43,827 nt of DNA from a virus, in the IMG/VR virus record IMGVR_UViG_3300023118_000014, positions 1-43,827 of that record. One strand, given 5' to 3'. Of the stretch, positions 22,374-26,011 are shown one piece after another. Under the pieces are notes generated by a model. That model was not told the origin of the DNA, made no database searches, and worked only from the letters and a program-made list of their open reading frames with translations. A program made the position numbers and the translations under genes. Position 1 is the first letter of the stretch. Each line of letters opens with the position of its first letter.

Positions 22374-22632
22374 GGTGCTGGAACCCCGCGGATTGTCTAA
22401 GGACGCGGCAGCTGCCTATGCTGGCTGTGAAAGCCTTGCATCATTTAGTGACTGGATCCGGCGTGGGATTTTACCGGGGCCGATCCCTGGAACGCACAAA
22501 TGGGACAGGAAGGCCATCGATGCAGCTCTTGACCGTCTCTCTGGCTTGCAAGCTACAATCGCGCCCGAACTTTCCCCATTCGAAAAATGGAAGGCGGAAC
22601 AAGATGCGCGTCCCCTTGAAGGGCATTCATAA
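22366..22632 (+). CDS. excisionase-like small DNA-binding protein, 88 aa
   Basis: I start at 22366 (MGRVLEPRGLSKDAAAAYAG), which overlaps the preceding stop; an ATG 12 bases earlier is possible. The sequence LSKDAAAAYAGCESLASFSDWIRRGILPGPIPGTHKWDRKAIDAALDRL is a winged-helix MerR/Xis-type layout (LS---AA-Y-G-S----W---G--P-PI-G---WDR--ID-AL). It overlaps the integrase start by 29 bases, the standard xis-int arrangement. It would bend DNA at attP/attR and favour excision. Confidence 0.75.
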   Translation: MGRVLEPRGLSKDAAAAYAGCESLASFSDWIRRGILPGPIPGTHKWDRKAIDAALDRLSGLQATIAPELSPFEKWKAEQDARPLEGHS

Positions 22633-23641
22633 GACCACCAAGAAGCTCGCGGACGGTAGCACGAAAGATTACTACTATGTCGGCAAAGGCGGTCCTCGCA
22701 TCGATGCAGTCCCAGGGTCGCAAGAATTTATGCGGTTGTTTGCCGAAGCAAACGTGCGAAAGAAGCCAACTTCTGATACTATGCAGACGTTGATTGATTA
22801 CTTCAAGGACTCCGACGAGTACAAAACTCTGAGCATTCATAGCCGGCGATCTTACAACCAATATCTTGCACTCATAGGCGGGAAGTTCGGCACCATGCCG
22901 TTTGCAGCAATCGAGGACAAGCGCGCGCGAGGAGAGTTCAAAACTTTCCGCGGCAGCTTTTCCGCGAACCCGCGCAAGGCCGATTACATCTGGACGACGT
23001 TGGCGCGTGTGCTCTCTGTCGCAAAGGACCATGGCAAGATCAGTGTCAACGTGTGCGAGCGTGGCGGTCGGCTTTATGAAGCGGATCGGTCGGACATTAT
23101 CTGGCAGGCCGACGATATTCGGAAGTTCTGTGCCGTTGCATCTATCGAGTTGCAGGCAGCTTTGCTGCTGGCGTTGTGGACTGGGCAGCGGCAAAGCAAC
23201 CTGGTTAAGATGACGTGGAAAAACTACGACGGCACCTTTTTGCGGTTCAGGCAAACGAAGGCGCGGGGGCAGAAGGGTCGCCGGGTAACGATCCCAGTTG
23301 GCGCTCCTCTCAAGACCGCGCTGGACGCCGCACTTCAGGAGAAGCGAAACTCGGTGACGATCCTCACAAACAGCCGCGGCCTGCCGTGGACTGAGGATGG
23401 GCTACGGACCTCATGGAGCAAGGCGTTCGACAAAACTGACCTGGGCGATCTTCATTTCCACGACCTGCGAGGGACCGCCGTAACGCGCCTGGCGCTGGTC
23501 GGATGCACCGTGCCGGAGATTGCATCTTTCACCGGCCACTCCATGGATACGGTGCAACAGATCCTTGACGCTCACTACCTTGGCGGGCGCCTTGAGCTTG
23601 CCGAGTCCGCGATCAAAAAACTCAACGCAGTGTACGGATAA
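22604..23641 (+). CDS. int: tyrosine recombinase integrase
   Basis: 345 residues from the ATG at 22604; the frame is open 62 codons earlier but that part overlaps xis and reads as noise. Catalytic residues: Arg196 in TGQRQSNLVKM, Lys219 in RQTKARG, His286 and Arg289 in FHDLRG, His312 in FTGHSM and nucleophile Tyr325 in DAHYLGG. The N-terminal arm-binding part is 1-60, core-binding about 60-160. It recombines attP (immediately downstream) with a host tRNA-Lys gene. Upstream lies the excisionase-like gene with 29 bases overlap. Confidence 0.93.
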   Translation: MRVPLKGIHKTTKKLADGSTKDYYYVGKGGPRIDAVPGSQEFMRLFAEANVRKKPTSDTMQTLIDYFKDSDEYKTLSIHSRRSYNQYLALIGGKFGTMPFAAIEDKRARGEFKTFRGSFSANPRKADYIWTTLARVLSVAKDHGKISVNVCERGGRLYEADRSDIIWQADDIRKFCAVASIELQAALLLALWTGQRQSNLVKMTWKNYDGTFLRFRQTKARGQKGRRVTIPVGAPLKTALDAALQEKRNSVTILTNSRGLPWTEDGLRTSWSKAFDKTDLGDLHFHDLRGTAVTRLALVGCTVPEIASFTGHSMDTVQQILDAHYLGGRLELAESAIKKLNAVYG

Positions 23642-23905: not shown

Positions 23906-24112
23906 ATGAGCGGCATCCTCACCTCCGTCCATAAGGCCCGGGATGAAGCCGGAGCCACGTCGCCCAAGGGCCGGCGCCTCACCATCGTGTCGCAGATCGT
24001 GCAGACGCCTCCGGTCGATGACGACCAGGCACGGCGCCAGCGGGGCATCCTGCAGGGCGTTGAGCAGGACTTGCGCGGCCTCGTTGCTGCAGAGCGCGGA
24101 GGTGCGGCGTGA
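23906..24112 (+). CDS. hypothetical basic protein, 68 aa
   Basis: First gene after attP. Sequence: SGILTSVHKARDEAGATSPKGRRLTIVSQIVQTPPVDDDQARRQRGILQGVEQDLRGL. Helical and basic with no known domain. Coupled to the next gene by TGATG. Upstream lies a GC-rich hairpin (CCACCCCCGC...GCGGGGTGG at 23878-23901) without a T run. Confidence 0.55.
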   Translation: MSGILTSVHKARDEAGATSPKGRRLTIVSQIVQTPPVDDDQARRQRGILQGVEQDLRGLVAAERGGAA

Positions 24113-24453
24113 TGGCAACCCTCTCAAAAATCGAGCCGCAACCGCCGCGCGGCATCAAGTACATGCTCGGGGACGAGACGTGGCTTGCCCCCGCAGATCG
24201 GTCGCCCATGCGCCTCGAATGTGAAGAGTGGGGCAACCTAGGACCGATGGAGTTGAACGCAGAGATCAAGCCAAACAAGGCCGGCTTTCGCGTCAGGAAC
24301 ACAACCATCCTCGCACCGACTGGCGCTCTTGGCTTCACCGAGATCGATGGGGTCTATTTTTGGACCGACACCGATGTCTGGGGTCGCTCCGCTGCCGAAC
24401 GTGAAGCCCGCGCGCCCGGACCCCACCCCAACGATCTAAGCGGTGCAGCATGA
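24112..24453 (+). CDS. hypothetical protein, 113 aa
   Basis: Begins ATLSKIEPQPPRGIKYMLGDETWLAP and continues with beta-rich sequence (MELNAEIKPNKAGFRVRNTTILAPTGALGFTEIDGVYFW). No catalytic motif. The stop overlaps the C5 methyltransferase ATG (ATGA). It may be a partner or inhibitor of the methyltransferase; there is no direct support. Confidence 0.6.
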   Translation: MATLSKIEPQPPRGIKYMLGDETWLAPADRSPMRLECEEWGNLGPMELNAEIKPNKAGFRVRNTTILAPTGALGFTEIDGVYFWTDTDVWGRSAAEREARAPGPHPNDLSGAA

Positions 24454-25823
24454 GCGCTTATTACAACGAGATCGAACCCTTCGCCGCGGACTGGCTCCGC
24501 AGATTGATCGCTAAAGGACTGATCGCGCCTGGCGACGTTGACACCAGGAGCATCATCGATGTCCGACCCGACGACCTGCGATCCTATACACAGTGCCATT
24601 TCTTCGCCGGGATTGGCGGATGGTCCTACGCTCTCCGATCGGCCGGATGGGACGACGATCGATCTGTTTGGACCGGTTCCTGCCCCTGCCAGCCGTTCTC
24701 CCTCGCCGGCAAGCAAAAGGGCTTCGACGACGCCCGCCACCTCTGGCCCGTCTGGCGAGACCTTATCCGCGAGTGCGATCCTGCAGTCGTCTTTGGAGAG
24801 CAGGTTGCGAGCGCGACTGAATGGCTCGGACTTGTGCGAAGTGACCTGGAAGCCATGGGCCGCGCCGTGGGGGCAATGCCTATCCAAGCCGCGAGCGCGG
24901 GTGCGGACCATCTCCGCGACCGATACTGGTTTGTGGCTCACACCGAGTTGCCCGAGGGCAAACGACAGCGACGAAACGGCGGGGAAATTTTATCCGAGCA
25001 AGCAGCAGGTCGACATCATAGCGCAGGCAACCTGGGCCCTGACGGCGGCTCGGGATTGGCGTTCCGATCGGTCGCAGAAGTCGAGCGAGGAAATGTACGG
25101 GTCGAAAGGCCGGCCGCTGCCGCGCCAAATGCTGGAAGCCTCGCCTTGGCCAACTCCGACAGCGCGCCTCGGGGACGATCAGCGCGGGATGCCGAGCTCA
25201 GATCAGGGACTGAAGCGGTTCGAGAGCGGCCGACGCAATCTGGACGATGCAGTAGCGCTGTCAACTTGGCCGACAGCCAGCGTGTCGAACGCTCGCGGGA
25301 ACGGCTATCAGAACAGCAAGAACGGGATCACGCCGACACTTTCAGGAGTGACGGGAGCAGCGAGCTTTCCTGGGTCACTGGCGCCGACGGAAAAGCCAGG
25401 CGCGTTAAACCCGGACTTCGTTTGTTGGCTCATGGGGTACCCGGCCGAGTGGGTAAGTTGCGCGGATTCGGAAACGCCATCGACCCCCGCCCCGCGGCGA
25501 CGTTCATCGAAGCCGCCGACTACGCCATGAGCCTGCGCAGCCCTTGGAGCAAGAGCGCGGACCCCGCCACGTGCTGGGGCGCAGGATCGGGGAGAACCCC
25601 GATGAAGCAGGTCGGTGCCGTGACGCAGATTTCAGCAACTAAGCGACGCTTCCCGACCGACCCGGCCGGAGCGGCTCGCTGGATGCCAACGCTCCATGGC
25701 AAGATCATGAAGGTCGGCGGCTTAGCAGGGCTGCCTTTCGGCGGATTCGATACGCGCGCAGAAGCGATCGCTGCAGGCAGGCGTGCATATCTAACGCTCT
25801 CGCAGGATGGGGTGCTGTCATGA
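24450..25823 (+). CDS. C5 cytosine DNA methyltransferase (overprinted by a second ORF)
   Basis: 457 residues. Motif I FFAGIGGWSYAL (51-62), motif IV GSCPCQPFS with catalytic Cys80, motif VI-type VVFGEQVAS with Glu117 (EQV instead of ENV), motif VIII HLRDRYWFVAH (154-164), and motif X GFGNAIDPRPAATFIEA (about 338-354). The region between motifs VIII and X is low-complexity with LANSDS and NLADSQRVERSRERLSEQ stretches. Residues beyond 360 form an extra ~95-residue domain (MKVGGLAGLPFGGF..RAEAIAAGRRAYL). No restriction enzyme is visible nearby, so it is an orphan, probably for protection from host restriction. The +1 frame of bases 24559-25530 encodes a second recognisable protein. Confidence 0.92.
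   Translation: MSAYYNEIEPFAADWLRRLIAKGLIAPGDVDTRSIIDVRPDDLRSYTQCHFFAGIGGWSYALRSAGWDDDRSVWTGSCPCQPFSLAGKQKGFDDARHLWPVWRDLIRECDPAVVFGEQVASATEWLGLVRSDLEAMGRAVGAMPIQAASAGADHLRDRYWFVAHTELPEGKRQRRNGGEILSEQAAGRHHSAGNLGPDGGSGLAFRSVAEVERGNVRVERPAAAAPNAGSLALANSDSAPRGRSARDAELRSGTEAVRERPTQSGRCSSAVNLADSQRVERSRERLSEQQERDHADTFRSDGSSELSWVTGADGKARRVKPGLRLLAHGVPGRVGKLRGFGNAIDPRPAATFIEAADYAMSLRSPWSKSADPATCWGAGSGRTPMKQVGAVTQISATKRRFPTDPAGAARWMPTLHGKIMKVGGLAGLPFGGFDTRAEAIAAGRRAYLTLSQDGVLS
24559..25530 (+). CDS. overlapping +1-frame protein of the methyltransferase locus, 323 aa
   Basis: Nested entirely in the methyltransferase gene. It starts MSDPTTCDPIHSAISSPGLAD, contains TTIDLFGPVPAPASRSPSP and GETLSASAILQSSLESRLRARLNGSDLCEVTWKPW, then repeated WPTP/WLTP motifs (WLTPSCPRANDS, WPTPTARLGDD, WPTASVSNARG) and ends GALNPDFVCWLMGYPAEWVSCA. 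I know the SP-G-ADG-T-----DG-T-DLFG... and NP-FV-WLMG-P--W motifs from a phage family beside or overlapping C5 methyltransferases (recalled, not searched). An open frame of 323 codons with recognised family motifs argues against chance. Role unknown. Confidence 0.65.
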   Translation: MSDPTTCDPIHSAISSPGLADGPTLSDRPDGTTIDLFGPVPAPASRSPSPASKRASTTPATSGPSGETLSASAILQSSLESRLRARLNGSDLCEVTWKPWAAPWGQCLSKPRARVRTISATDTGLWLTPSCPRANDSDETAGKFYPSKQQVDIIAQATWALTAARDWRSDRSQKSSEEMYGSKGRPLPRQMLEASPWPTPTARLGDDQRGMPSSDQGLKRFESGRRNLDDAVALSTWPTASVSNARGNGYQNSKNGITPTLSGVTGAASFPGSLAPTEKPGALNPDFVCWLMGYPAEWVSCADSETPSTPAPRRRSSKPPTTP

Positions 25824-26011
25824 CCTTTTACGCAGAGGGTGGAGCCTCGTGGTCGGCTGATTGGAACGAGCACACCGCCATCTTCGATCCGCCATCCGCT
25901 GGCTATCGCGCAGCCAAACAAGCCAATTGCTTCGACTGCGGCCCCCAAGGCCACTGCCACATGAACTGCGGTCTCGCCGCCACCCCCAGCAATACGGGCC
26001 CAGGCTCATGA
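25820..26011 (+). CDS. small Cys-rich protein, 63 aa
   Basis: ATGA overlap with the methyltransferase stop and with the next start. The C-terminal part has ANCFDCGPQGHCHMNCG: C-x2-C...C-x3-C, a possible small zinc knuckle. N-terminus TFYAEGGASWSADWNEH. No family known. Confidence 0.62.
   Translation: MTFYAEGGASWSADWNEHTAIFDPPSAGYRAAKQANCFDCGPQGHCHMNCGLAATPSNTGPGS

Follow-up and report, generated by a model that had tools for sequence, protein, structure and literature searches.

Overlapping reading frames of a phage methyltransferase gene probably encode the two subunits of one enzyme

Two overlapping genes at one locus

The window, by which we mean the whole 43,827-nucleotide stretch of virus record IMGVR_UViG_3300023118_000014 that was analysed, carries an integrase gene at 22418-23641 and genes for a portal protein and for a structural protein of the virion. 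At the locus considered here, two long frames are open on the same strand: a C5-cytosine methyltransferase chain, here called alpha, and, in its +1 frame, a second protein, here called beta, which begins ~36 codons into alpha and runs from an ATG at 24559 to a stop at 25530. The initial annotation had placed two open frames at 24450-25823 and 24559-25530, and our reading of the ORFs confirmed both. Small ORFs overlap alpha on either side through ATGA-type junctions, a sequence arrangement that suggests a translationally coupled operon. The features of alpha and its immediate neighbours are:

24109-24453: small upstream ORF, overlapping the start of alpha through an ATGA-type junction
24450-25823, + strand: alpha, C5-cytosine methyltransferase chain, 457 residues (PF00145, phrog_363; motifs I, IV, VI, VIII and X)
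24600-24620, + strand: alpha motif I (FFAGIGG; alignments A2 and A5)
24684-24701, + strand: alpha motif IV (PCQPFS, with the catalytic Cys; invariant in alignment A5)
24795-24809, + strand: alpha motif VI (GEQVA; E117 invariant)
24909-24938, + strand: alpha motif VIII (HLRDRYWFVA; R156 and R158 invariant)
24981-25280, + strand: alpha residues 178-277, opposite the beta modules, predicted disordered (AF2 pLDDT <50)
25470-25481, + strand: alpha motif X (GNAI; GNA invariant)
25542-25820, + strand: C-terminal extension of alpha past motif X, predicted mostly disordered and absent from most relatives
25820-26011: small downstream ORF, overlapping the end of alpha through an ATGA-type junction

Alpha matched phrog_363, 'DNA methyltransferase', with an E-value of 6e-73 and PF00145 with an E-value of 1.5e-10, the latter alignment stopping at residue 164; motifs I, IV (PCQ), VI, VIII and X are all present in the correct order, in agreement with the earlier identification of this frame as a C5 methyltransferase. 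Its best solved relative, both by sequence and by fold, was M.HhaI: the predicted fold matched this enzyme with an E-value of 2.5e-8, and M.HhaI and other C5 methyltransferases were matched over ~170 columns. In the AF2 model, residues 1-170 and ~300-363 are folded, while residues 178-277 and the C-terminal extension are of low confidence and probably disordered. We found no target-recognition domain with motif IX on the alpha chain itself, where residues 178-277 had pLDDT <50; because the folded residues are M.HhaI-like and 178-277 are unfolded in the model, alpha has the catalytic domain and lacks the recognition domain. The initial annotation had described the recognition region as low in complexity, as a constraining second frame would lead one to expect; this is right, and a stronger form of it holds, in that alpha has no folded domain there. 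The extension beyond motif X, of ~90 residues, sets alpha apart from most relatives; a PHROG search of its end (25620-25820) found no match.

The features of beta are:

24546-24550, + strand: Shine-Dalgarno sequence AGGAG for beta, spaced 8 nt from the ATG at 24559
24559-25530, + strand: beta, 323 residues, proposed specificity subunit (phrog_1008; +1 frame conserved in every locus)
24766-24903, + strand: beta helix (residues 70-87) and hairpin (93-115), AF2 pLDDT ~84-89
24934-25032, + strand: beta module 1 (WLTPSCPRAN...), from module parsing
25033-25146, + strand: beta module 2 (WALTAARDWRSDRSQKSSEEMYGSKGRPLPRQ...), of a type shared with loci L005, L191, L201 and L223
25147-25266, + strand: beta module 3 (WPTPTARLGDDQRG...RRNLDDAVALST), from module parsing
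25267-25368, + strand: beta module 4 (WPTASVSNARGNGYQNSKNGITPTLSG...), of a type shared with L005
25405-25452, + strand: beta motif IX-like block (LNPDFVCWLMGYPAEW), aligning with motif IX of E. coli Dcm

The best of the PHROG matches of beta was phrog_1008, also labelled 'DNA methyltransferase' (E 7e-23); searches of Pfam and NCBIfam gave no match. Only the helix and hairpin fold confidently alone in the AF2 model, which is poor elsewhere (mean pLDDT 56), as may be fitting for a chain that needs a partner and DNA. A fold search with this low-confidence model returned nothing below E 0.6, and the PDB yielded no relatives, and no methyltransferase, for the beta profile or the beta C-terminus. 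Near-invariant positions are mostly W, P, G, L, N, T or S, with one Lys and one Cys besides; the beta alignments held none of the conserved acids or His that catalysis would call for, and judged from these alignments no near-invariant residue looks catalytic. The C-terminal block is near-invariant in alignments A1, A3 and A4, and the best Dcm alignment of the C-terminal profile LNPxFVxWLMGYPxEW was motif IX (RRLTPRECARLMGF); this match is short and weak (P ~0.026), and is suggestive of a motif IX equivalent at the C-terminus of beta.

Distribution of the gene pair

We assembled ~200 loci, no two of them identical, in which beta lies in the +1 frame of alpha; they come from phages, prophages and plasmids and range from Proteobacteria to Firmicutes and cyanophages. 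Separate searches with beta and with alpha gathered 160 viral loci; deduplication and clustering at 90% identity, with loci found earlier added, gave 129 pairs. Beta was in the +1 frame in 129 of these 129 viral pairs, with overlaps of at least 654 nt and a median of 951, and in 80 of 80 loci from bacterial genomes (73 parsed by script, 7 by eye). The same relation holds in N15, epsilon15, BcepC6B, K1ind2, the T4-like KMB43, Vequintavirus pangalan (Vequintavirinae), Bacteroides phage BS-TP4 and Acidovorax phage Alfacinha1, as well as in Lacticaseibacillus and Paenibacillus plasmids and in Microcystis/Synechococcus (cyanophage) loci.

Among the ~200 loci, every intact alpha of this family was accompanied by beta, and beta was never found outside alpha; on this distribution, we regard the pair as ancient and obligate. 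The second frame had been described as a protein with W-P-T-P repeats and associated with a phage family seen near C5 methyltransferases. This needs amending: in every locus examined, the family lies inside the methyltransferase gene, in the +1 frame.

One candidate for a stand-alone beta, a CDS of Alfacinha1 annotated as a methyltransferase, proved to be beta, and the alpha that overlaps it in the other frame had gone unannotated. Where inspected, loci with an apparently beta-less alpha were misses of the regular expression, except for L009 and L175; L010 is cut by the contig end. In L009 (2802-3350), an internal deletion fuses alpha, up to SAGADHL, to the C-terminus of beta, truncating both genes, and from its sequence we take this locus to be a decayed copy. 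In L175 (2465-3724) and L211 (3870-4956), the frame shifts by one base ahead of the motif IX-like block, so that alpha runs on in the beta frame and motif X lies in another frame, by sequencing error or mutation.

Selection on both reading frames

In 10,000 synonymous shuffles of the window's alpha, the +1 frame stayed open in 0.17% of trials, with 4.4 stops expected and none seen; the +2 frame has 10 stops. Across 120 loci (33,243 codons from motif I to motif X), the +1 frame held 4 stops against 322.6 expected, and the +2 frame 1374. In the reverse direction, the alpha frame had no stops in the middle region of 128 loci, against 419.5 expected from beta-synonymous shuffles, a result partly conditioned on the selection of alpha ORFs by PCQP-like and GNA motifs; loci selected by beta had a complete alpha in nearly every case.

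Codon positions were compared in 29 non-overlapping pairs of relatives at 70-95% identity. The rates of difference at alpha codon positions 1/2/3 were 0.104/0.094/0.407 before the beta start, 0.132/0.085/0.250 from motif I to VIII, 0.280/0.151/0.129 in the middle, 0.154/0.089/0.182 over motifs IX and X, and 0.164/0.132/0.322 after beta. Divergence at fourfold sites of alpha fell along the gene from 0.494 through 0.444, 0.344 and 0.158 to 0.094, and then rose to 0.163 and 0.375. Set beside beta, the values (alpha/beta) were 0.494/0.072 before the beta start, 0.158/0.195 over motifs VI-VIII, 0.094/0.304 in the middle, between motifs VIII and IX, 0.163/0.176 over IX-X, and 0.375/0.214 after beta. 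Both profiles indicate that constraint moves from alpha to beta and back to alpha along the gene, and both frames of the overlapping pair are under purifying selection. Within motifs I-VIII, conservation of alpha third positions peaks at codons 60-95 after FFAG, which coincide with the predicted beta helix and hairpin; both frames are constrained there, with an alpha fourfold-site divergence of 0.158.

The start of beta carries a signal of its own. Its Shine-Dalgarno sequence is written in the Arg-Ser codons of a conserved R-S-I of alpha, and an ATG stands at the beta start position in 148 of 194 loci. The Arg codon at the Shine-Dalgarno site is AGG in 62 of the 148 loci with this ATG and in 0 of the 46 without it, against 6.2% at other Arg codons. 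The Shine-Dalgarno core was found in 100 of the 148, where synonymous resampling predicted 23 +/- 4, and in 17 of 23 loci with an ATG four codons later (7.5 +/- 2.1 expected). Translation of beta is strongly supported by selection, and the selected start site is indirect support for both products being made.

These results bear directly on whether the +1 frame could be a passive shadow of a GC-rich alpha, its family motifs merely mirroring conserved alpha residues. The conserved N-terminal part of beta does largely overlap conserved alpha motifs, and beta was never found without alpha, as a shadow would have it; the reversal of fourfold-site divergence in the middle, the avoidance of +1 stops and the selected start site all speak against it, and we give this explanation almost no credence, the codon-position and start-site tests on these sequences having already refuted it. 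The initial annotation, which saw two proteins overprinted in one locus and a second product if both are made, is supported on this account (4 stops against 323 expected in the +1 frame, the fourfold-site reversal and the selected start). It had named two observations that would count against a second gene: stops appearing freely in relatives, which the same 4 against 323 contradict, and the lack of any beta outside a methyltransferase overlap. The latter is indeed what we found, and the reading nonetheless stands, because in the stretch from motif VIII to motif IX the constraint falls on the beta frame, which is impossible for a passive shadow.

A frameshift, programmed or mutational, might instead fuse alpha motifs I-VIII to beta in one single-chain product. 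In favour of this, the motif IX-like sequence of beta lies just ahead of motif X, which is the order in a single-chain enzyme, and the one-base shift in the rare loci L175 and L211 does move alpha into the beta frame. However, a selected Shine-Dalgarno sequence with an ATG favours two separately initiated proteins; the middle of alpha is open in 128 of 128 loci (419.5 stops expected), which a shifted product would not need; and motif X would be lost if the shift led into beta alone. We therefore regard fusion as very improbable. A Pfam search of the frame-shifted L175 and L211 gave a match no longer than usual; all profile and fold queries were natural sequences.

A proposed catalytic and specificity pair

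The part of beta that separates the hairpin from the motif IX-like end holds 1-6 tandem units with a median length of 36 residues, starting W-P-T-P. The window's beta has four; the second and the fourth are found again, in unchanged order, in L005, where the first unit differs and the third is absent. By average linkage, 594 units from 202 loci formed 187 types, counts that vary with the clustering threshold (single linkage merged most modules). Fifty-eight types occur in at least three loci, 53 of which occupy at least two ordinal positions, and 22 pairs of units share at least 80% identity across loci with alpha cores <65% identical.

Taken together, the locus probably encodes a two-subunit DNA (cytosine-5) methyltransferase in which alpha catalyses, the beta modules recognise DNA and the motif IX-like end docks. 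Alpha would be the catalytic subunit, with the cofactor site, the catalytic Cys and motifs VIII and X, and would carry a disordered linker in place of the target-recognition domain of a single-chain enzyme. Beta, read in the +1 frame from an internal ribosome-binding site of its own, would contribute a helix-hairpin platform and tandem W-P-T-P modules of ~36 residues that read DNA, and its C-terminal motif IX-like segment would dock on alpha; most likely, beta supplies the recognition domain that alpha is missing. We infer that beta binds alpha, that it carries motif IX and that its modules are recognition units, the specificity of the modules following less directly than the function of the subunit.

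Beta might also be a real protein but a separate partner instead of the specificity half: it could regulate, inhibit host restriction or serve as a stabilising chaperone, for instance. This would agree with a beta that has no recognised domain or fold and only a short similarity to motif IX, but the stretch of alpha that lacks motif IX and a folded recognition region is exactly the one in which constraint falls on the beta frame, alpha and beta are apart in no locus, and the modules vary and recur as recognition domains do; we consider a separate partner unlikely. Of the 'partner or regulator' first suggested for the second product, the partner, and not the regulator, is the best explanation.

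In the two-subunit reading, each module probably recognises a single short DNA word, and modules would be swapped among phages by recombination. We propose that one word per module would protect a phage against several restriction enzymes at once. The stronger statement, that each of the 187 W-P-T-P module types reads its own word and is swapped among phages, as a cassette in an array, to change methyltransferase protection with catalysis left untouched in the other frame, we hold to be evenly poised. Frame-shift fission of a single-chain enzyme is a possible origin of the pair, since in each protein one part matters and the other is mostly the shadow of its partner.

M.EcoHK31I is the nearest biochemical precedent, compared here by description rather than by sequence. 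There too, the beta gene is nested within alpha in a different frame, like phage beta. Its large chain has motifs I-VIII and X, like phage alpha, and motif IX alone is on a second polypeptide; the predicted recognition region of this YGGCCR enzyme is kept on the large subunit (PMC3404938), whereas phage alpha is disordered there and beta has a variable module array. The M.EcoHK31I arrangement thus departs from the role proposed for phage beta and counts against it. In M.AquI (CYCGRG), also of two subunits, the recognition region is divided: a part of it shares a chain with the catalytic motifs, and the rest is on the other chain with motif IX (PMC3404938). Motif X is on the small subunit of M.AquI and on alpha here, and the phage genes differ further in being nested over ~970 nt. 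The recognition domains of multispecific Bacillus phage methyltransferases are ~40 residues long, and the tandem beta units, with a median of 36 residues, reuse across positions and a putative role in DNA recognition, resemble them. These enzymes (SPR, phi3T, rho11 and H2) are summarised in PMC8936443, citing Wilke 1988 and Lange 1991, as having tandem recognition domains and several targets. They are single chains in one frame, in contrast to the proposed modules on a +1-frame protein that overprints the catalytic gene. Gene pairs of the K1ind2 type, recorded as 'C-specific methylase' and 'Mte8-like' (PHROGs 363 and 1008), are the same alpha/beta pair, although those records do not state the function of beta or a subunit relation. 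We found no description of the phage alpha/beta overlap in the open literature; REBASE curators may know of it.

If the two-subunit reading is true, a phage gene family that is very common, and of which often only one frame is annotated, encodes half of an enzyme, the remaining half being read from the other frame, and the locus is a clear and widespread case of a long same-strand overlap (~970 nt here) in which the constrained frame switches along the gene. Simultaneous protection of a phage against several restriction enzymes would become a testable question in N15 and epsilon15, as would the origin of overlapping genes through the splitting of one enzyme and the rebuilding of DNA specificity from ~36-residue modules. 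If every module reads its own word, the family would form a library, open to decoding, of the modules with which a split methyltransferase recognises DNA.

The pair also carries a warning, that gene callers drop one of its two genes. Most records examined list one frame only, some alpha and others beta, and both overlapping genes are annotated in few (K1ind2 and PhiXhv-18). Only the beta frame is annotated in Acidovorax phage Alfacinha1 (L187, 1541-2674) and Pseudomonas phage PMG1 (L017, 3013-3774), labelled 'cytosine-specific methyltransferase' or hypothetical protein. Rhizobium sp. S152 has two alpha/beta pairs in tandem (L219, 3850-5500). On a Paenibacillus polymyxa plasmid (L272, 1779-3269), the beta stop follows the motif IX-like block and is itself followed by a second similar block, as if the end of beta had been duplicated inside alpha.
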